Shown here piece by piece: positions 203 through 7,548 of a stretch of 7,635 nucleotides of DNA. Source of the DNA: Nitrospinae bacterium RIFCSPLOWO2_12_FULL_45_22 (GTDB lineage Bacteria; 2-12-FULL-45-22); the NCBI GenBank assembly GCA_001803565.1, contig MHDQ01000239.1, positions 1 through 7,635 of the forward strand, read 5' to 3'. Below the pieces are notes generated by a model that saw only the letters and a program-made list of their open reading frames with translations, was not told where the DNA came from and ran no database searches. The stretch's first letter is position 1. Every line of letters begins with the position of its first letter. Made by a program: the position numbers and the translations under genes.

Positions 203-721
203 TTAACCCCCATCGAGTAAGCCGCGCTCTTCCCATAGGAACCAGTTTCCAGTATCACTCAAATAGGTATAGGTATTTTGTAATAACTGAAAGTGCTGCT
301 TTTCCTCACCAACCAGGAACTCAAAAAATACCTTCTCTTCAGAGGTAGTTGCTTGTTGGGCTAGTTGCTGGTAGAGTTGATAGCCTTCTTTCTCCGTATC
401 CATGGCAATCCTTAATGCCTCTAGCTCATCAGGATTGGCTTCGATTCTCCCTGCTACAGCATCTTTAACCGCTTCAAACAATCCCTTAACCCGCTCCCGG
501 GGGCTTTTCTTCTGCTTCAGCCGGTCAATATCAATGCTTAGCGGTCCAGCCCCCTTCTTGAGCGATTGGAGGAGTTCCAGGTGTTCTTTTTCGTCTTGCA
601 TGAAGGCTTCGAACATCATCTTACCAATGGGGTGTTTGGTCTTATCCTTGGCCTTACGATAAAACTCTATCCCATCCGCCTCATTCTTTATAGCCAGTTC
701 TATTCCAGATAAAATATCCAT
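203..721 (-). CDS. Ferritin-like (rubrerythrin-family) diiron protein
   Basis: A 172-residue cytoplasmic protein with two helical halves, each carrying the rubrerythrin ligand pattern. E14-x6-Y21 and E44-x2-H47 lie in the first half; E110-x6-Y117 and E140-x2-H143 lie in the second. These six Glu/His residues are the expected carboxylate-bridged diiron ligands of the ferritin-like four-helix bundle. There is no C-terminal rubredoxin domain, so it is a short erythrin-type member. A charged linker (about 65-100) separates the halves, and an aromatic tail (about 159-166) ends the protein. Family members reduce peroxide or handle iron in anaerobes; the substrate here is inferred. The start is supported by AAGGAG (736-731) 9 nt upstream, behind a CTGACA-N17-TATGAT promoter. 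It is probably monocistronic, since 283 bp separate it from the upstream CoA-transferase gene. The diiron family assignment is firm; the physiological role is not. Confidence 0.88.
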   Translation of the reverse strand: MDILSGIELAIKNEADGIEFYRKAKDKTKHPIGKMMFEAFMQDEKEHLELLQSLKKGAGPLSIDIDRLKQKKSPRERVKGLFEAVKDAVAGRIEANPDELEALRIAMDTEKEGYQLYQQLAQQATTSEEKVFFEFLVGEEKQHFQLLQNTYTYLSDTGNWFLWEERGLLDGG

Positions 722-981: not shown

Positions 982-1008
982 TATACTTTTTTATGAAATG
1001 CTATCTAG
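982..1008. repeat. Flanking direct repeat, right copy, covering the CoA-transferase stop codon
   Basis: This is the right-hand partner of 811-834. It contains the TAG stop (1005-1007, read on the minus strand) of the CoA-transferase gene plus its immediate downstream bases. The 3' edge of that gene therefore appears in duplicate on the far side of the 835-981 repeat unit. Confidence 0.65.
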
Positions 1009-2243
1009 ATGGCACGCCGTTCTTTGAGTGAGGATATCATTTCCTGATCATAACCCAGCCAATTAGTAAGAATTTCAGTTGTATGCTGCCCCAGGGTAGG
1101 GGCTGGGGTCCGCACCTTACCTGGGGTAAGGGAGTGTTTCCAGGGTATTCCCTGGAGCTTTACCCGTCCAGCCGCTGGATGATCTACCTCAGCTACCATC
1201 CCTCTTTCCTGGACATGTTCATTGGTCAAGATATCCTTATGGCTCCAGATAGGTGCAGCCGGGATCTCGTTCTCTAAGAATATATTCATGATTTCCTCAA
1301 CGGTCTTTCCCTTTGCCCATTGGGCAGTGAGTTGGTCAATCATCTCAGCATTAGCCCCCCGGTCTCGGACGGTCTTGCATCGAGGGTCAGCTATCAGGTC
1401 TTCCCGGCCCATAATGCGACAGAACTTAGCCCAGTGGCTATCAGGCCCTATAATAATGAATATATACCCATCTTTGGTTTGGTAAGTATTGAAGGGGGAG
1501 ACCGAAGGATGTCGGTTACCATTCCTTACCCAGTGATAATTAGTATGGGCCGCGGCCATCAGGCCAAAATCGCTCATATATACGGTATTGTCCAGCAGGC
1601 TTATGTCTACATGCTGTCCTTTGCCGGTCTCTTTGCGGTAAAGGAGGGCAGAGAGGGCACCTATAGCGGCCATCCAACCAGTACTATTATCCACAATGGC
1701 ATTACCGGTCCTGAGGGGCATCTCCCCCGGCATGCCGGTCACATACATGATACCGCCCATAGCCTGGGCCAGAGGATCAAAGCCTGGTCTCTTATGATAC
1801 GGCCCGTATTGACCAAACATAGATATAGAGATATAAACAATTTTAGGATTCAATCTCTTTATATCATCATACCCAACACGCCACCTGGCCATAGTGCCGG
1901 GTTTAAAGTTCTGGATCAGCACATCTACCTTAGCAGCTAGGTCACGAAATATCTCCTGCCCTTCCGGATGGCGCATGTTTATGGTAATCCCTTTCTTGTT
2001 TCGATTGATGCTTAAGAAGTAGGTGCTGGTTTCCTGCGGTGGTTTCCCTTCTAAGAAAGGGCCTGCATACCTTACCAACTCTCCCTCAGGCTGTTCCACT
2101 TTAATGATTTCAGCCCCTAAATCAGCCAGCACCATGCCACACATCGGCGCCGTATGCATCCCGCCAATCTCCAATACCTTTATCCCCTCCAAAGGCCCTT
2201 TGGAATTATTAATTACCTCTTTGAAAAATTCTTCCTTCTTCAT
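1005..2243 (-). CDS. CaiB/BaiF (family III) CoA-transferase
   Basis: A 412-residue cytosolic enzyme with the family's full length. Near the N-terminus is the opening pattern LEGIKVLEIGG...LADLGAEIIKVEQP (about 18-52), the CoA-binding Rossmann part. Further features are FKPGTM (113-118), the conserved glycine-rich stretch ending in the likely catalytic Asp D185 (VDNSTGW), and TGKGQHVDISLLD (206-218). Family III enzymes move CoA between organic acids through an aspartyl-CoA thioester. Known substrates include carnitine, formate/oxalate, benzylsuccinate and bile acids; the substrate here cannot be read from sequence. The gene starts 3 bp after the trxB stop, and its ribosome site (AGGGGG, about 2256-2250) lies inside the end of trxB, so the two are probably co-transcribed. 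A second AGGAG abuts the ATG and is too close to serve. No acyl-CoA dehydrogenase or ligase neighbour helps to name the pathway. Confidence 0.93.
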   Translation of the reverse strand: MKKEEFFKEVINNSKGPLEGIKVLEIGGMHTAPMCGMVLADLGAEIIKVEQPEGELVRYAGPFLEGKPPQETSTYFLSINRNKKGITINMRHPEGQEIFRDLAAKVDVLIQNFKPGTMARWRVGYDDIKRLNPKIVYISISMFGQYGPYHKRPGFDPLAQAMGGIMYVTGMPGEMPLRTGNAIVDNSTGWMAAIGALSALLYRKETGKGQHVDISLLDNTVYMSDFGLMAAAHTNYHWVRNGNRHPSVSPFNTYQTKDGYIFIIIGPDSHWAKFCRIMGREDLIADPRCKTVRDRGANAEMIDQLTAQWAKGKTVEEIMNIFLENEIPAAPIWSHKDILTNEHVQERGMVAEVDHPAAGRVKLQGIPWKHSLTPGKVRTPAPTLGQHTTEILTNWLGYDQEMISSLKERRAI

Positions 2244-2246
2244 CTC

Positions 2247-3182
2247 CTACCCCCTTTCTTCTGCCTCCAAGAGGCGTTCGACTTCTATAGCGGCCCTACA
2301 GCCCGATCCTGCGGCTGTTACTGCCTGGCGATAGATATGGTCGTGGACATCGCCTGCCGCAAATACCCCGGGTATATTGGTTCTTGTACCATCCTTTAAA
2401 ATGATGTAACCCATATGGTCAAGTTCTATTTGGCCCCTAAAAATCTCGGTATTAGGGACATGGCCAATAGCCAGAAAGACACCCTCACAGCCTTTTTGGC
2501 TTAACTGATTAGTTTTTACATCTCTTAACTTTATAGCGGTTACTTTGCCTAGACCTGGGTCCAAAATATCCTCCACTACTGTGTCCCATATAAAACTAAT
2601 CTTGGGGTTCTTAAAGGCCCGCTCCTGCATGATCTTAGAGGCCCGCAACTTATCCCGGCGGTGGATTACCCATACCTGTCGGGCAAATTTAGTCAGGAAT
2701 AAGGACTCTTCCATGGCTGAATCACCACCCCCTACTACCACCACCACCTGATCCTTAAAAAAGAAACCATCACAAGTTGCGCAGGTAGATACCCCATGAC
2801 CTAGCAGCTTCTTCTCAGATTCAAGCCCTAGCATTCGGGTTGACGCCCCGGTAGCGATGATAAGGGTTTTGCACCAGAAGGTTTCTTCGACCGCTTCAAT
2901 GCGAAAAGGACGGCTTTTTAAATCAACCCTGGTAGCAGCCATAGGCCGTAATTGTGCCCCGAAATGCTGTGCCTGCTGTCGCATATTCTCCATCAACTCG
3001 GGACCCATTATTCCCTGAGGAAAGCCAGGATAGTTCTCTACTAAAGTAGTCAAACTCAACTGACCTCCTACCTCTACCCCTTCCATTATCAAGGTTTTGA
3101 GATTGGCCCGGGCGGTATAAATAGCTGCGGTCAGACCGGCTGCACCAGACCCCAAGATAATTACTTCCCATATTTCCCGCAT
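2247..3182 (-). CDS. trxB: Thioredoxin reductase (NADPH, FAD flavoprotein)
   Basis: A 311-residue low-molecular-weight thioredoxin reductase of normal length. The FAD-binding motif GSGAAG lies at 11-16 and the second FAD element TIPGVFAAGD-like (NIPGVFAAGDV) near the C-terminus. The redox-active disulfide CATC is at 134-137, followed by DG. The NADPH-binding GGGDSAMEE starts at 151, and HRRDKLRA at 174-181 carries the arginines that select the 2'-phosphate of NADPH. It reduces thioredoxin or a thioredoxin-like partner; no thioredoxin gene is in the window. The start is supported by AGAGGG (3196-3191) 8 nt upstream. It heads a probable two-gene operon with the CoA-transferase and is divergent from the diiron/response-regulator operon across a 414-bp control region. 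Family identity is very secure. Ferredoxin- or F420-type relatives lack the HRR motif seen here. Confidence 0.96.
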   Translation of the reverse strand: MREIWEVIILGSGAAGLTAAIYTARANLKTLIMEGVEVGGQLSLTTLVENYPGFPQGIMGPELMENMRQQAQHFGAQLRPMAATRVDLKSRPFRIEAVEETFWCKTLIIATGASTRMLGLESEKKLLGHGVSTCATCDGFFFKDQVVVVVGGGDSAMEESLFLTKFARQVWVIHRRDKLRASKIMQERAFKNPKISFIWDTVVEDILDPGLGKVTAIKLRDVKTNQLSQKGCEGVFLAIGHVPNTEIFRGQIELDHMGYIILKDGTRTNIPGVFAAGDVHDHIYRQAVTAAGSGCRAAIEVERLLEAEERG

Positions 3183-3302: not shown

Positions 3303-3333
3303 AATCTAAGATTCTTCTCTAGCAGCTTAGATT
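3303..3333. repeat. 8-bp inverted repeat AATCTAAG/CTTAGATT
   Basis: Perfect 8-bp arms at 3303-3310 and 3326-3333 are separated by 15 nt. They lie about 80-110 bp upstream of the sigma-54 -24 element, a distance at which activator binding sites are often found. No T-run follows, so it is not a convincing terminator for either divergent unit. Confidence 0.4.
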
Positions 3334-3343
3334 ACGGGTAAAA

Positions 3344-3397
3344 GTTTAGCCAATTAAAGGCTTCGCTCCATATTTGGGACACTTTATTTGGCTAAAC
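3344..3397. promoter_or_regulatory. 16-bp interrupted dyad, candidate activator site for the sigma-54 promoter
   Basis: The arms GTTTAGCCAATTAAAG (3344-3359) and CTTTATTTGGCTAAAC (3382-3397) are reverse complements at 15 of 16 positions, with one T:T mismatch and a 22-nt spacer. The pair ends 13 bp before the -24 box, so its centre is about 66 bp upstream of the predicted start. Sigma-54 activators such as the one encoded at 4220-5626 bind dyads upstream of their promoters. Assigning this dyad to that protein is inference. Confidence 0.5.
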
Positions 3398-3410
3398 AGT
3401 TACGATTACG

Positions 3411-3426
3411 TGGCATGTTTATTGCA
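3411..3426 (+). promoter_or_regulatory. rpoN-dependent promoter: Sigma-54 (-24/-12) promoter
   Basis: TGGCATG-TTTA-TTGCA matches the RpoN consensus TGGCACG-N4-TTGCW at every position but one (C to T), with the invariant GG and GC at the required spacing. Transcription would begin near 3437, giving a leader of about 160 nt before the diiron gene at 3597. The second gene of the operon encodes a sigma-54 activator with an intact GAFTGA loop, so autoregulation is the simplest reading. Confidence 0.75.
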
Positions 3427-3507
3427 TTAGTCAATGATGTTAGTATAACAGTTTACCGCGTACACAGCAGATAATGCTGAGTAGTGGTGTCATCCATAAC
3501 ACATTTT

Positions 3508-3525
3508 AGTTGCATAAATGCAACT
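3508..3525. promoter_or_regulatory. Perfect palindrome AGTTGCATAAATGCAACT in the operon leader
   Basis: Eight-base arms surround a 2-nt centre, and TGCAACT is repeated again at 3528-3534, making three copies of the same heptamer. The site lies about 70 bp downstream of the predicted sigma-54 start and about 70 bp before the start codon. It could be a repressor operator acting as a roadblock, or an RNA hairpin in the leader. The sequence does not decide between these. Confidence 0.45.
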
Positions 3526-3536
3526 GCTGCAACTTT

Positions 3537-3554
3537 CTCTGCGGGCTCGGCGGC
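3537..3554. repeat. Solo fragment of the 9-nt periodic repeat family
   Basis: CTCTGCGGGCTCGGCGGC matches 5921-5938, the right arm of the element at 5633-5938, at 15 of 18 positions and shows the same 9-nt period. No partner arm is seen nearby, so this is an isolated remnant in the leader, 26 bp before the ribosome site of the 3597 gene. Confidence 0.55.
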
Positions 3555-3596
3555 GAACGGCCCCACTTATATAGAAAGAGAGGAGGCACAGAATAG

Positions 3597-4214
3597 ATGA
3601 TAGACCGGGATATAGAAAACCTTACGCGCACTACTGCCTTAGAGAGATTTGCTATCTCTCGCTATGACGAACAGATACAGAAGATACCGATACCAAAGTT
3701 AAAGATGTTATTGCCTGGTATCAGGACTAATGAGGAAGGGCATGAAGCCCAGGTATTAAAGCTGGCACGGGCCCGCGACCAGGCTACCCAGATGGAGGAT
3801 ATTCCCCTCTTTACCCTAGATAAACCGCTGGAAGAAATCCTGGCTGGGGAGGGCTACAAGAGTAAGCCTGGCTTCAAAACTATATTGCAGGCCTTTTATC
3901 TGGACCTCTATTTTGAGAAGAATGCAGTAAAGCTCTACCAAAAATTTGCTGAAGACTCTGAAGACGAAGAGATCAGAAAGTTCTTTTTGGACACAACCCG
4001 CTCAGAACAGGGTCATGTGAGGATCTTTAAGGAAGTTATTGATCAAATACACCGAAATCAGCTTGATATAGAGTTTTACTGCCCAGTATGTGGCTGGATA
4101 GAATCCTTTGGCCGGGAGCCTAACGTAGGCAATGTGGTCAATTGTCGCAAGTGCGGTATAAAGATCATACTTAAAGAGAGGGATGGAGATTTTTACGTAG
4201 AAAGAATGGAGTGA
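3597..4214 (+). CDS. Ferritin-like diiron protein with C-terminal zinc-ribbon/rubredoxin-like domain
   Basis: A 205-residue cytoplasmic protein of rubrerythrin architecture. The four-helix bundle shows E16-x6-Y23, E46-x2-H49, E107-x6-Y114 and E137-x2-H140, which supply a complete set of diiron ligands. The tail holds C162-x2-C165 and C183-x2-C186, a Cys4 knuckle pair that in classical rubrerythrins binds one iron (rubredoxin) and passes electrons to the diiron site; here it could also bind zinc. The spacing of 17 residues between the knuckles and the CRKC sequence are not those of a textbook rubredoxin. A strong AGGAGG (3581-3586) 10 nt upstream fixes the start. The gene leads an operon with the response regulator (5-bp gap if that gene starts at 4220) and follows the sigma-54 promoter. 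The likely role is peroxide reduction or iron/redox buffering. A sensory role for the regulator is possible but unproven. Confidence 0.86.
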   Translation: MIDRDIENLTRTTALERFAISRYDEQIQKIPIPKLKMLLPGIRTNEEGHEAQVLKLARARDQATQMEDIPLFTLDKPLEEILAGEGYKSKPGFKTILQAFYLDLYFEKNAVKLYQKFAEDSEDEEIRKFFLDTTRSEQGHVRIFKEVIDQIHRNQLDIEFYCPVCGWIESFGREPNVGNVVNCRKCGIKIILKERDGDFYVERME

Positions 4215-4219
4215 TCTTT

Positions 4220-5626
4220 ATGGCATATAGCATCCTGGCTGTGGACGACGAGGAGACTATTCTACGGTCTATTTCTCGTAAACTTGATAAGGAGGGCTAT
4301 CAGGTGGAATTGGCCCTCTCTGGTCAGGAAGCCCTAAGAAAATTACGGATTAGCATCCCTGATCTGGTCTTACTCGACTTAAAGATGCCTGGTCTGGACG
4401 GATTGGAGACCCTTAAGGAGATCAAAAAGATCGCCCCGGAGACTATTGTTATCATGATGACCTCTTACGGGACGATTGAGAGTGCTGTAGAAGCCATGAA
4501 ACAAGGGGCTTATGACTTTATCACCAAGTCCGTTACCCTGGATGATCTAAAGATTGTAGTACGCCGGGCCTTAGAAGTCTCTGAGCTGCGCGACCGAATA
4601 GATATCTTTCAGAGGCAGGAAGAGAAGAGATATTGCCTGGACAATCTTATTCGAGAAAGCCCGGCCGTAAAGGAAATTTATAGCACCTTACAGACTATCA
4701 TATTAAATGATAAAGCTACGGTGCTGATTCAGGGAGAGACCGGTACCGGGAAAGAACATATTGCCAAGATCATTCATTATAATAGCAGCCGGGCTACCAG
4801 GCCCTTTGTAGAAGTTAATTGCTCGGCTATTCCCCAGGAGCTTTTTGAGAGCGAGCTTTTTGGCTATGAGAAAGGGGCTTTTACTGGTGCGGATCGGCTC
4901 AAAAAAGGGCAGTTTGAGCTAGCTAATGGTGGTACCCTGTTTCTGGATGAGATAGGGGATCTGGACAATCGGATGCAGATAAAGCTTTTGCGGGCATTGC
5001 AAGAGAAGCGTTTCAAGCGGGTAGGTGGTACCAGGGACATTCAGATTGATGTCCGGATCATAGCCGCTACTAACCGGGACTTGAAGAAGGCTATCCAGGA
5101 AGGCACTTTCCGTGAAGATCTCTATTTTCGATTAAAGGTGATACCGATAGAATTGGTTCCTTTAAGAAAGAGCCGGGAAGATATTATCCCCTTAGCGGAA
5201 AATTTTATTGTTGAGTTTAATAGAGAGTTCAAGAAGAATATCCGAAGTATGGACCAGGAGGTAAAAGAGGTCTTAATGAACTATCCCTTTCCCGGGAATA
5301 TCAGGGAATTAGAAAACATTATTGAACGGGCCATGATCTTTTGTTTTAAGGATAAGATTACTACTGAACACCTACCTAAAGATCTCCTCGAAGGCAGAGA
5401 AACGAGCTGGCCCATAACCCCGGAGTCGGATGGAGGCAAGGCTATAAATTTACGGATAGAGTTTGGTCAGGAGACTTTGGGCCAGATCGAAAAATCCACT
5501 ATTCATAAGGCATTAGAGAAGGCCAGAGGCAATAAGACTCTAGCAGCAAAATACCTGGGTATTACTCGGTTCGCCCTCAATCGGCGCCTCCAGAAATATC
5601 ACCTAACCGCTCCTTTTTCCCTATAA
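4220..5626 (+). CDS. NtrC-family sigma-54-dependent response regulator
   Basis: 468 residues from the ATG at 4220, with the standard three-domain layout. The receiver domain has the acidic pocket D9-D10, phospho-acceptor D53 (LLDLKMPG), T81 and K103. The AAA+ domain has Walker A GETGTGKE (172-179), the sigma-54-contacting GAFTGA (219-224), Walker B GGTLFLDE (237-244), the arginine-bearing FREDLYFRL (297-305) and GNIRELEN (359-366). A Fis-type helix-turn-helix lies at about 440-460. Phosphorylation by a histidine kinase should trigger ATP-driven opening of sigma-54 promoters. The residue after K103 is Ser where most receivers have Pro. I prefer the ATG at 4220 because GGAG (4208-4211) lies 8 nt upstream. 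A GTG at 4211 is in frame, would add three residues and overlap the upstream stop by 4 bp, but has no good ribosome site. No cognate kinase is in the window. Confidence 0.95.
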   Translation: MAYSILAVDDEETILRSISRKLDKEGYQVELALSGQEALRKLRISIPDLVLLDLKMPGLDGLETLKEIKKIAPETIVIMMTSYGTIESAVEAMKQGAYDFITKSVTLDDLKIVVRRALEVSELRDRIDIFQRQEEKRYCLDNLIRESPAVKEIYSTLQTIILNDKATVLIQGETGTGKEHIAKIIHYNSSRATRPFVEVNCSAIPQELFESELFGYEKGAFTGADRLKKGQFELANGGTLFLDEIGDLDNRMQIKLLRALQEKRFKRVGGTRDIQIDVRIIAATNRDLKKAIQEGTFREDLYFRLKVIPIELVPLRKSREDIIPLAENFIVEFNREFKKNIRSMDQEVKEVLMNYPFPGNIRELENIIERAMIFCFKDKITTEHLPKDLLEGRETSWPITPESDGGKAINLRIEFGQETLGQIEKSTIHKALEKARGNKTLAAKYLGITRFALNRRLQKYHLTAPFSL

Positions 5627-5764: not shown

Positions 5765-5814
5765 AGGAAACCAAGAGGCCAGGAAATTAACCTCTCCTGT
5801 ATTCCTGGTTTCCT
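5765..5814. repeat. Nested dyad in the full-length repeat copy
   Basis: AGGAAACCA (5765-5773) pairs perfectly with TGGTTTCCT (5806-5814), and CCAGGAA (5779-5785) pairs with TTCCTGG (5802-5808). The bulged AGAGG (5774-5778) can pair with CCTCT (5791-5795) in the loop. The left arms lie in the block missing from copy A, so only this copy can form the structure. Confidence 0.45.
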
Positions 5815-5870
5815 TATCATAAGCACTTTCTCTCAAATACGTCACCGTAATTATGGATTAGAGCACTTAG
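5787..5870. repeat. 84-bp direct repeat, copy B
   Basis: Identical to 9-92 over all 84 bases. Here the repeat sits in the middle of the inverted-repeat-bounded element and is preceded by a further stretch (5749-5786) absent from copy A. The two copies bracket five genes in direct orientation. Confidence 0.9.
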
Positions 5871-5944: not shown

Positions 5945-6796
5945 TTAGATTTTCCTTATTCTCCTTATGCTGGCGAAACCAAAGGCTAGAGGGAGGAGGA
6001 TAGTTATCGCCCCAAGCCAGAGTAAGTTCTTTTTTATAAACCCCGGTTCTTGCTTTAGTCTCTTTAATGGCCTTCCAGAGACCATTTCTAAGGCCTGCTG
6101 CGGACACCCCTCGGCACACAATCCACAGCCAATACAAGCAGCTTGATCCAGTTGCCAATCCCCATCACTGCCGCTAATCGCCCGGCCTGGGCAGATACCA
6201 GCACAGCTCTGGCAGCTTATGCAGGCCACATCTTTTCTTATAGGGTAAAAAGGGCCGGCTTGCAAGGCCGCTTCAATACCATACTCGAAGCGCAATTTAC
6301 GGGGCAGGCAGCAGCAAGAGCAGCAGCTACAAATGGCATAGCTATAGGGTGGTAAGCACCATTCAAAGGCCAGGAGCATGCCCCTCTTTACACTTTCGGT
6401 AACAATCTCTTTGGCCTTATCCTTATCAATCCTCTGCTTAGGTAAGATACCCTTATCTAGATAGACCTGCCCGCCGGTATTGATATATAAGCAAGTCATT
6501 AAGGGCCGGCTGCATCTCGGATATAGCGTCCGGCAGGCACAATGGGAGACGGTAATATAGTTAGCCTGCTCCAATAATTCCAAGATTTCGCTCAGGGGTA
6601 AAGCCATACCAGTATGATAATTGAAGCCATAAAAATTGATGATACCCTTCAAGAAGACTGACCCAAGGATAGGGATGCGGGTGAGGCGGGAGAGAAAATA
6701 ATAAAATTCCAACAGGTCCAGGATATTAGAAAAATAGAGCCTCAGAAGGGATTTACGTTGGACTGAGGCATCATCCAATAAAGTCAGGTGTGCCAT
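5945..6796 (-). CDS. Cysteine-rich 4Fe-4S dicluster protein with C-terminal membrane anchor
   Basis: A 283-residue iron-sulfur protein with 19 cysteines. Two classical 4Fe-4S motifs sit at C192-x2-C195-x2-C198-x3-C202-P and C221-x2-C224-x2-C227-x3-C231-P, the bacterial ferredoxin fold. Upstream is a second cysteine-rich part: HCACR (85-89), C95, C102, C147 and the dense ICSCCSCCC run (C156, 158, 159, 161, 162, 163), which could hold a further cluster or metal. A hydrophobic segment (about 257-276) followed by basic residues (RRIRK) suggests a C-terminal membrane anchor with the clusters in the cytoplasm. It probably carries electrons to or from a membrane partner; none is encoded nearby. AAGGA (6810-6806) 9 nt upstream supports the start. 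The gene converges on the response regulator gene, and its stop lies 6 bp outside the repeat element. I do not recognise a named gene. Confidence 0.82.
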   Translation of the reverse strand: MAHLTLLDDASVQRKSLLRLYFSNILDLLEFYYFLSRLTRIPILGSVFLKGIINFYGFNYHTGMALPLSEILELLEQANYITVSHCACRTLYPRCSRPLMTCLYINTGGQVYLDKGILPKQRIDKDKAKEIVTESVKRGMLLAFEWCLPPYSYAICSCCSCCCLPRKLRFEYGIEAALQAGPFYPIRKDVACISCQSCAGICPGRAISGSDGDWQLDQAACIGCGLCAEGCPQQALEMVSGRPLKRLKQEPGFIKKNLLWLGAITILLPLAFGFASIRRIRKI

Positions 6797-6877: not shown

Positions 6878-7249
6878 CTAAGGGTTCTCATTTTTGTCTA
6901 TCCTTCTGAGTCTTCCAAAATCTTCCAAAATTTTATTGATCAATGGTTTAATTCGTGGAATGACAGTTGTGATGGCATTCCACACAAGGTCATACTTTAC
7001 GCCAAAATAGAAATGAATGAGCCTATCTCTCATGCCTGCCATATCTTTCCATGGAACCTGGTGATACTTCTGTTTAATGTCTTCGGGAATATTTTTGGTT
7101 GCCTCTCCAATAATTTCAAATTTCCTTATCACTGCGCTTGATCTCATATCGTCCTTTTTAAAAGTTTCCAAATCCACTCCTCTCACAAATTTTTCAATTG
7201 CTTCCATAGCCTCTAATATGTCTTTCAAGTATAGTGTAGGATTTCTCAC
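6878..7249 (-). CDS. hepT: HepT-like HEPN ribonuclease toxin (DUF86)
   Basis: A 123-residue helical protein of typical HepT length. The HEPN catalytic motif R-x4-H-x-Y is complete: R74, H79 and Y81 in MRDRLIHFYFG. In this family the Arg and His cut RNA, and the Tyr is the residue that the partner MntA modifies with AMP to silence the toxin. The N-terminus (NPTLYLKDILEAMEAIEKF) is also typical. The start is a GTG at 7249-7247 whose bases overlap the TGA stop of the antitoxin gene (GTGA, 4-bp overlap). The toxin is therefore likely made by translational coupling only when the antitoxin is translated. The base composition of the pair looks more AT-rich than the metabolic genes, consistent with horizontal gain; this was judged by eye. 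Confidence 0.92.
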   Translation of the reverse strand: MRNPTLYLKDILEAMEAIEKFVRGVDLETFKKDDMRSSAVIRKFEIIGEATKNIPEDIKQKYHQVPWKDMAGMRDRLIHFYFGVKYDLVWNAITTVIPRIKPLINKILEDFGRLRRIDKNENP

Positions 7250-7548
7250 AGGTAAATCGCCTCCTTCAGGACATTTTCCCTGATCTCTTCCCTAATAGTA
7301 TCAATAGGAACTATATCCACCTTCAAATCGAGTTTCTCTTCAAGGAAGTTTGCAAGACCAACAAAGTCAAACAATGATGCCCCTTCAAGAAATCTCACGA
7401 GAATATCCATATCGCTACCCTCTTTTTGTTCTTCACGGGCATAAGAACCGAACACCCCGATAATATCAGCTTTATACTCTTTTCTTATCGGGCCCTCAAA
7501 ATCTTTGAGGACTTTTCTGAGTCTTTCGAGCTCTTTATCTGGTTTCAT
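7246..7548 (-). CDS. mntA: MntA-like minimal nucleotidyltransferase antitoxin
   Basis: A 100-residue protein of the minimal nucleotidyltransferase family. The signature GS-x10-D-x-D fits exactly: G34-S35, then D46 and D48, with a third acidic residue D78 in KVDIV. These three Asp bind the metals for nucleotide transfer. MntA proteins attach AMP units to the HepT tyrosine, so this is an enzyme-type antitoxin. It is the first gene of the pair and overlaps hepT by 4 bp. The ATG is preceded by purine-rich AGAGAAGAAAGG, whose AAAGG touches the start codon, so the ribosome site is imperfect. No other in-frame start gives a complete family N-terminus. A promoter and palindrome lie just upstream. Confidence 0.92.
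   Translation of the reverse strand: MKPDKELERLRKVLKDFEGPIRKEYKADIIGVFGSYAREEQKEGSDMDILVRFLEGASLFDFVGLANFLEEKLDLKVDIVPIDTIREEIRENVLKEAIYL

Follow-up and report, generated by a model that had tools for sequence, protein, structure and literature searches.

The inverted repeat upstream of a predicted sigma-54 promoter for a diiron protein and an NtrC-type regulator is an IS66-type MITE

The inverted repeat at 3338-3403, which borders a predicted sigma-54 promoter, is an IS66-type MITE, as judged from its dispersed and paired GTAA ends, its target duplications and the likeness of its ends to those of IS66, so its origin is not that of an NtrC operator. The first-pass annotation had described a 16-bp dyad here and taken it for the binding site of the regulator encoded downstream; an inverted repeat is indeed present, although its arms are longer (22 nt), and the regulatory role assigned to it gives way to that of a terminal inverted repeat (TIR) pair of a mobile element with a target-site duplication. 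We favor, with modest confidence, a reading in which the locus is an ordinary sigma-54 operon that encodes a regulator together with an iron or redox stress protein and whose promoter has a MITE inserted at its upstream edge. The window, meaning the whole stretch of DNA analysed, is one complete contig of 7635 bp from a 3.67-Mb genome (321 contigs, 85% complete) of an isolated lineage, and it contains the following features:

203-721, reverse strand: rubrerythrin-like protein
1005-2243, reverse strand: family III CoA-transferase
2247-3182, reverse strand: thioredoxin reductase (TrxB; TIGR01292 above cut-off), a divergent neighbour outside the operon
3303-3333: imperfect dyad AATCTAAG-N15-CTTAGATT just upstream of the MITE, statistically unremarkable
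3330-3337: left target-site duplication GATTACGG, identical to 3404-3411 at 7 of 8 positions
3338-3403: 66-bp IS66-type MITE (the dyad of the first-pass annotation), with TIRs GTAAAAGTTTAGCCAATTAAAG and, on the reverse strand, GTAACTGTTTAGCCAAATAAAG
3404-3411: right target-site duplication GATTACGT, whose final T also opens the -24 box
3411-3426, forward strand: predicted -24/-12 sigma-54 promoter TGGCATG-TTTA-TTGCA; the operon starts about 170 nt downstream
3508-3525: perfect palindrome AGTTGCAT-AA-ATGCAACT in the leader, with a core, GTTGCANNNNTGCAAC, found only here in the genome
3597-4214, forward strand: ferritin-like diiron protein, 205 aa, with a C-terminal four-cysteine zinc ribbon
4220-5626, forward strand: NtrC-family response regulator with receiver, AAA+ domain with GAFTGA, and Fis HTH
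5945-6796, reverse strand: ferredoxin-type protein
6878-7548, reverse strand: HepT/MntA toxin-antitoxin pair

The arms of the repeat (3338-3359 and 3382-3403) are 86% complementary and enclose a 22-nt loop. The element has no coding capacity, begins with GTAA and ends with TTAC. An 8-bp target duplication is an IS66 trait, and the element is flanked by one, with one mismatch between its two copies. The 10-mer core of the left arm, GTTTAGCCAA, has 60 matches in the genome (34 forward, 26 reverse), compared to 11 for a control consisting of the same letters read backwards, and the matches often form inward-facing pairs on a single contig (twice on C21, and on C40, C136, C147, C230, C309, C314 and the window itself). 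We read 16 paired cases, 15 of them distinct since L024 and L052 are the same element. They share a common extended end, GTAAYWGTTTAGCCAAATAAAG, with a conserved GTAAYW, while the elements run from 66 to 341 bp and have interiors that are unrelated or filled with repeats. Target duplications abut other copies as well (CCCGATTC at L061, AAAATGAA at L071, GAATAACC at L053 and AAAATTTTCT at L073), and true flanks differ on average at 3.0 of 8 bp, compared to 5.6 for mispaired flanks; several older copies carry no recognisable target duplication. The interiors of the family are variable, and several are built from long CCACGGATGAACACGGATAGACAC-type inverted repeats (e.g., L058, L073, L055 and L080), which could form large hairpins.

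Published IS66-family ends likewise start with GTAA (GTAAGCGTCC.../GTAACCGTCCGGGCA, also given as GTAAGCGTCCGG...; PMC12888890). The sole IS66 transposase found in the genome, at locus L083, has GTAACCGTTCACCCAG on its left side; just past this locus sits a non-coding element whose ends are of the same kind. No transposase-bearing element with exactly the ends of the window's MITE was found in the genome.

The promoter itself held up. The sequence at 3411-3426, TGGCATGTTTATTGCA, is one base off TGGCACGNNNNTTGCW, and it keeps the GG and GC of the TGGCACR-N4-TTGCW consensus at their fixed spacing, in agreement with the one-mismatch RpoN promoter described in the first-pass annotation. With up to one mismatch allowed, 0.30 matches are expected per shuffled window over both strands. 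Because the IUPAC pattern TGGCAYGNNNNTTGCW has only four exact matches in the 3.67-Mb genome, which is about chance level genome-wide, the case for a promoter rests on where the site lies. A single rpoN gene is present in the genome, along with about 24 proteins that have a sigma-54 activation domain, a figure that includes the window's regulator and one truncated match. Sites with at most one mismatch occur at 11 of the 23 other activator loci versus 2 of 30 control loci, the controls having been retrieved by means of the MITE core (Fisher p = 0.0009), and 12 of the 13 sites in activator loci are intergenic, although only about 20% of the bases in the examined loci are. A sigma-70 promoter was looked for before the operon, and none was found. 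We also considered whether the site might be part of a dispersed repeat and rejected this, as the flanks of 17 sites are dissimilar except in one paralogous pair. Taken on its sequence and position, the sigma-54 promoter at 3411-3426 is very probably real, with a start site predicted about 11 nt after 3426, near 3437.

At the ten other full-length activator loci that have such a site, it shares the strand of the regulator gene, follows that gene by about 40-360 nt and points away from it. The window is an exception: here the site comes before the regulator's operon, and there is none after the regulator. The uniformity of the layout is itself unusual, in that nearly all of this genome's NtrC genes with a nearby site have it downstream on the same strand (loci L018-L041; for example L022:2582, L035:1013 and L019:2813).

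The two-gene operon described in the first-pass annotation was likewise confirmed, as both ORFs (3597-4214 and 4220-5626) are intact, run in the same direction and are separated by five bases. The first encodes a four-helix bundle with predicted iron ligands arranged as two helix pairs, each contributing an E and an ExxH (E16 with E46/H49, and E107 with E137/H140), followed by zinc ribbon cysteines C162, C165, C183 and C186. It matches Pfam Rubrerythrin (PF02915) at 6.9e-10 and scores below the cut-offs of the named NCBIfam subfamilies, and a domain search of the protein found no signalling domain. AlphaFold2, run on an 11-sequence alignment, predicted four long helices and a small beta domain (pLDDT 91). 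In the PDB, the folds that match best are those of ferritin-like proteins, bacterioferritins and rubrerythrin (1ryt among them), and the best sequence matches there are the encapsulin-associated ferritins 5n5e and 2e0z. The usual rubredoxin spacing between CxxC pairs is N12 (CxxC-N12-CxxC, the FeS4 domain), whereas here 17 residues separate the pairs and the C-terminus is zinc-ribbon-like, so that, by sequence, we class the protein as rubrerythrin-like only. The protein would be cytoplasmic and likely has a peroxide- or oxygen-consuming or iron-handling role in redox stress.

The second ORF begins with an ATG at 4220, with a GTG at 4211 as an alternative start. Its product has the intact receiver, GAFTGA loop and Fis-type helix that had been reported, namely receiver residues D9/D10, D53, T81 and K103 (followed by S, the usual P being absent), a Walker A motif GETGTGKE, GAFTGA at 219 and LFLDEIGD. 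It thus combines the three domains of the NtrC family, and PDB entry 4l4u matches it over its full length (6e-110). No kinase gene for the regulator was found on the contig.

Elsewhere in the window, the second rubrerythrin-like protein (203-721), which has no zinc ribbon, together with TrxB gives the neighbourhood a redox flavour. The HepT-like ribonuclease and MntA-like nucleotidyltransferase at 6878-7548 make up a type VII toxin-antitoxin pair, with scores below the NCBIfam equivalog cut-offs. An identical direct repeat of about 83 nt is found at the left end of the contig (10-92) and behind the NtrC gene (5788-5870). No known regulatory RNA was detected in the window.

The first-pass annotation had also suggested that the diiron-NtrC pair might mark a conserved redox module and had proposed checking its adjacency in relatives, and this part did not survive. 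One scan of 84,980 species genomes retrieved 11 homologous loci (29-38% identity), and at none of the 11 is an NtrC gene in the same operon as the diiron homologue. Two loci (L007 and L008) have a single fused gene near a PBP-like solute-binding protein and an ABC transporter, with an NtrC gene about 3 kb off, convergent and beside pilin-like genes; the domains of L007 were taken from L008 by ORF clustering. The other nine (L006 and L009-L016) belong to Planctomycetota, several of them named Brocadiales, and there the protein is split into two adjacent genes, one for an N half of about 75-90 aa and one for a C half of about 116 aa that carries the zinc ribbon (e.g., L012:5642-5899 and L012:5992-6342), each a two-helix half with its own E and ExxH. 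The in-frame stops in the Brocadiales sequences were considered as selenocysteine codons or signs of a pseudogene, and both were rejected in view of the two ORFs, each with its own set of metal ligands. All nine of these loci have, by ORF clustering with domains read from L012, a TPR protein and a glutaredoxin/ferredoxin-thioredoxin-reductase/DUF3422 protein around the gene, and five of the nine have a receiver-GGDEF regulator and a histidine kinase 1-3 kb upstream. The diiron protein thus tends to sit among thiol-redox genes and sometimes among two-component genes. A profile search of 386 genomes found one other carrier, the genome of L007, whose operon has no regulator, and the diiron gene is absent from the only same-order relative compared (68% complete). 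A literature search for rubrerythrin with NtrC or RpoN found no matching operon, and the diiron-NtrC operon is known only in this genome.

Two other sequences could be the regulator's site. The geometry of the palindrome at 3508-3525 may fit a site for a dimeric activator or a small hairpin, while the dyad at 3303-3333 may be a weak alternative operator. We would like to note that both candidates were chosen after the fact.

How the operon would be controlled can be read in several ways. Under the reading that we favor, the first gene would yield a cytoplasmic diiron protein that combines a ferritin fold with a zinc ribbon, and the second an NtrC-type response regulator. RNA polymerase with sigma54 would bind the -24/-12 elements at 3411-3426, and an activator in its phosphorylated form, in the simplest case the NtrC protein encoded by the operon itself, would open the promoter, such that redox or iron stress would lead to more diiron protein and more regulator. 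The MITE would have landed on the edge of a pre-existing promoter and moved the upstream DNA about 74 bp away. Autoregulation is plausible from position; the diiron protein as output and a redox signal are plausible in a context that includes the divergent TrxB and second rubrerythrin-like genes and, in Brocadiales, the adjoining glutaredoxin/ferredoxin-thioredoxin-reductase gene. The regulator's operator is only a candidate and the pair is not conserved elsewhere, both of which count against this reading. Since the site layout also differs from that of the ten other loci, the activator could be another NtrC, with the linked regulator controlling genes elsewhere and no closed circuit. We consider this somewhat unlikely. 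In its favor, the genome encodes about 23 further sigma-54 activators, no kinase gene lies near the linked regulator, the adjacency is not conserved in homologous loci and the genome's usual order is regulator followed by sigma-54 site; nevertheless, the operon is tight, with its five-base gap, and it is common for activators to act on promoters close by, as in Desulfovibrio vulgaris (PMC4641369).

The original proposal, in which the repeat is an NtrC enhancer and the operon a closed autoregulatory circuit, we judge to be highly improbable. The repeat does span roughly -99 to -34 relative to the expected start, a distance usable for an activator site. However, an operator would be specific to the regulator's targets, and the genome has about 60 occurrences of the same ends, frequently in pairs that face inward and carry target duplications. 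Among about 30 other copies inspected, none sits just upstream of a sigma-54-like site. At the three other activator loci with a copy, it lies some 2 kb upstream of the promoter at L022, downstream of the promoter at L034, and between the kinase and regulator genes at L024. Co-option of this one MITE copy is possible but unsupported. It has also been considered whether the diiron protein could sense redox state or iron and thereby control the NtrC protein, either replacing the kinase or acting as a phosphatase or anti-activator. The diiron gene occupies the slot where about half of the other NtrC genes have a histidine kinase, and two-component genes also lie 1-3 kb upstream at five of the nine Brocadiales homologue loci. 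Even so, this is improbable: the phosphorylation residues of the receiver are intact, which implies a real kinase, the L007/L008 homologues have no regulator in their operon, and the diiron protein lacks any detected signalling domain. Less probable still is a version in which the protein represents a novel type of sensor for redox state or iron and directly gates the linked NtrC, the Brocadiales homologues being variants of the same role.

The locus illustrates that the terminal repeats of a transposon can be mistaken for a dyad bound by a regulator when a single locus is read, and that copy number together with target-site duplication makes a simple genomic test for such false dyads. The promoter, if real as predicted, gives the large sigma-54 network of this little-known lineage one more well-placed member. 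With a fused form here and two half-genes in Brocadiales, the ferritin-like family holds some interest for the origin of the ferritin fold, and the fused (window, L007/L008) and split forms are possibly a natural pair for that fold.

Compared to known systems, the MITE resembles IS66-family MITEs and terminal repeats in its GTAA...TTAC ends and 8-bp duplications, and the resident IS66 transposase locus is similarly ended; in contrast, the window TIR GTAAYWGTTTAGCCAA departs internally from the resident GTAACCGTTCACCCAG, the L083 ends being similar but not identical. The diiron protein is like the rubrerythrin/ferritin-like superfamily (PF02915; EncB/EncFtn) in its four-helix bundle with E + ExxH + E + ExxH ligands, and like rubrerythrin in having the bundle first and a metal-binding C-terminal domain after it, but it differs in its CxxC spacing of 17, and its Brocadiales homologues are split into two genes. 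The regulator has the receiver, GAFTGA AAA+ and Fis HTH of the NtrC family (Aquifex NtrC1/NtrC4, AtoC, ZraR), while lacking a linked kinase on the contig and having S, not P, after K103. As in the sigma-54 operons of Desulfovibrio (PMC4641369), activator genes adjoin sigma-54 promoters. Several Desulfovibrio activators are within their operon or divergent from it, whereas in the window's genome most sites lie just downstream of the activator gene and that of the window's regulator lies upstream.
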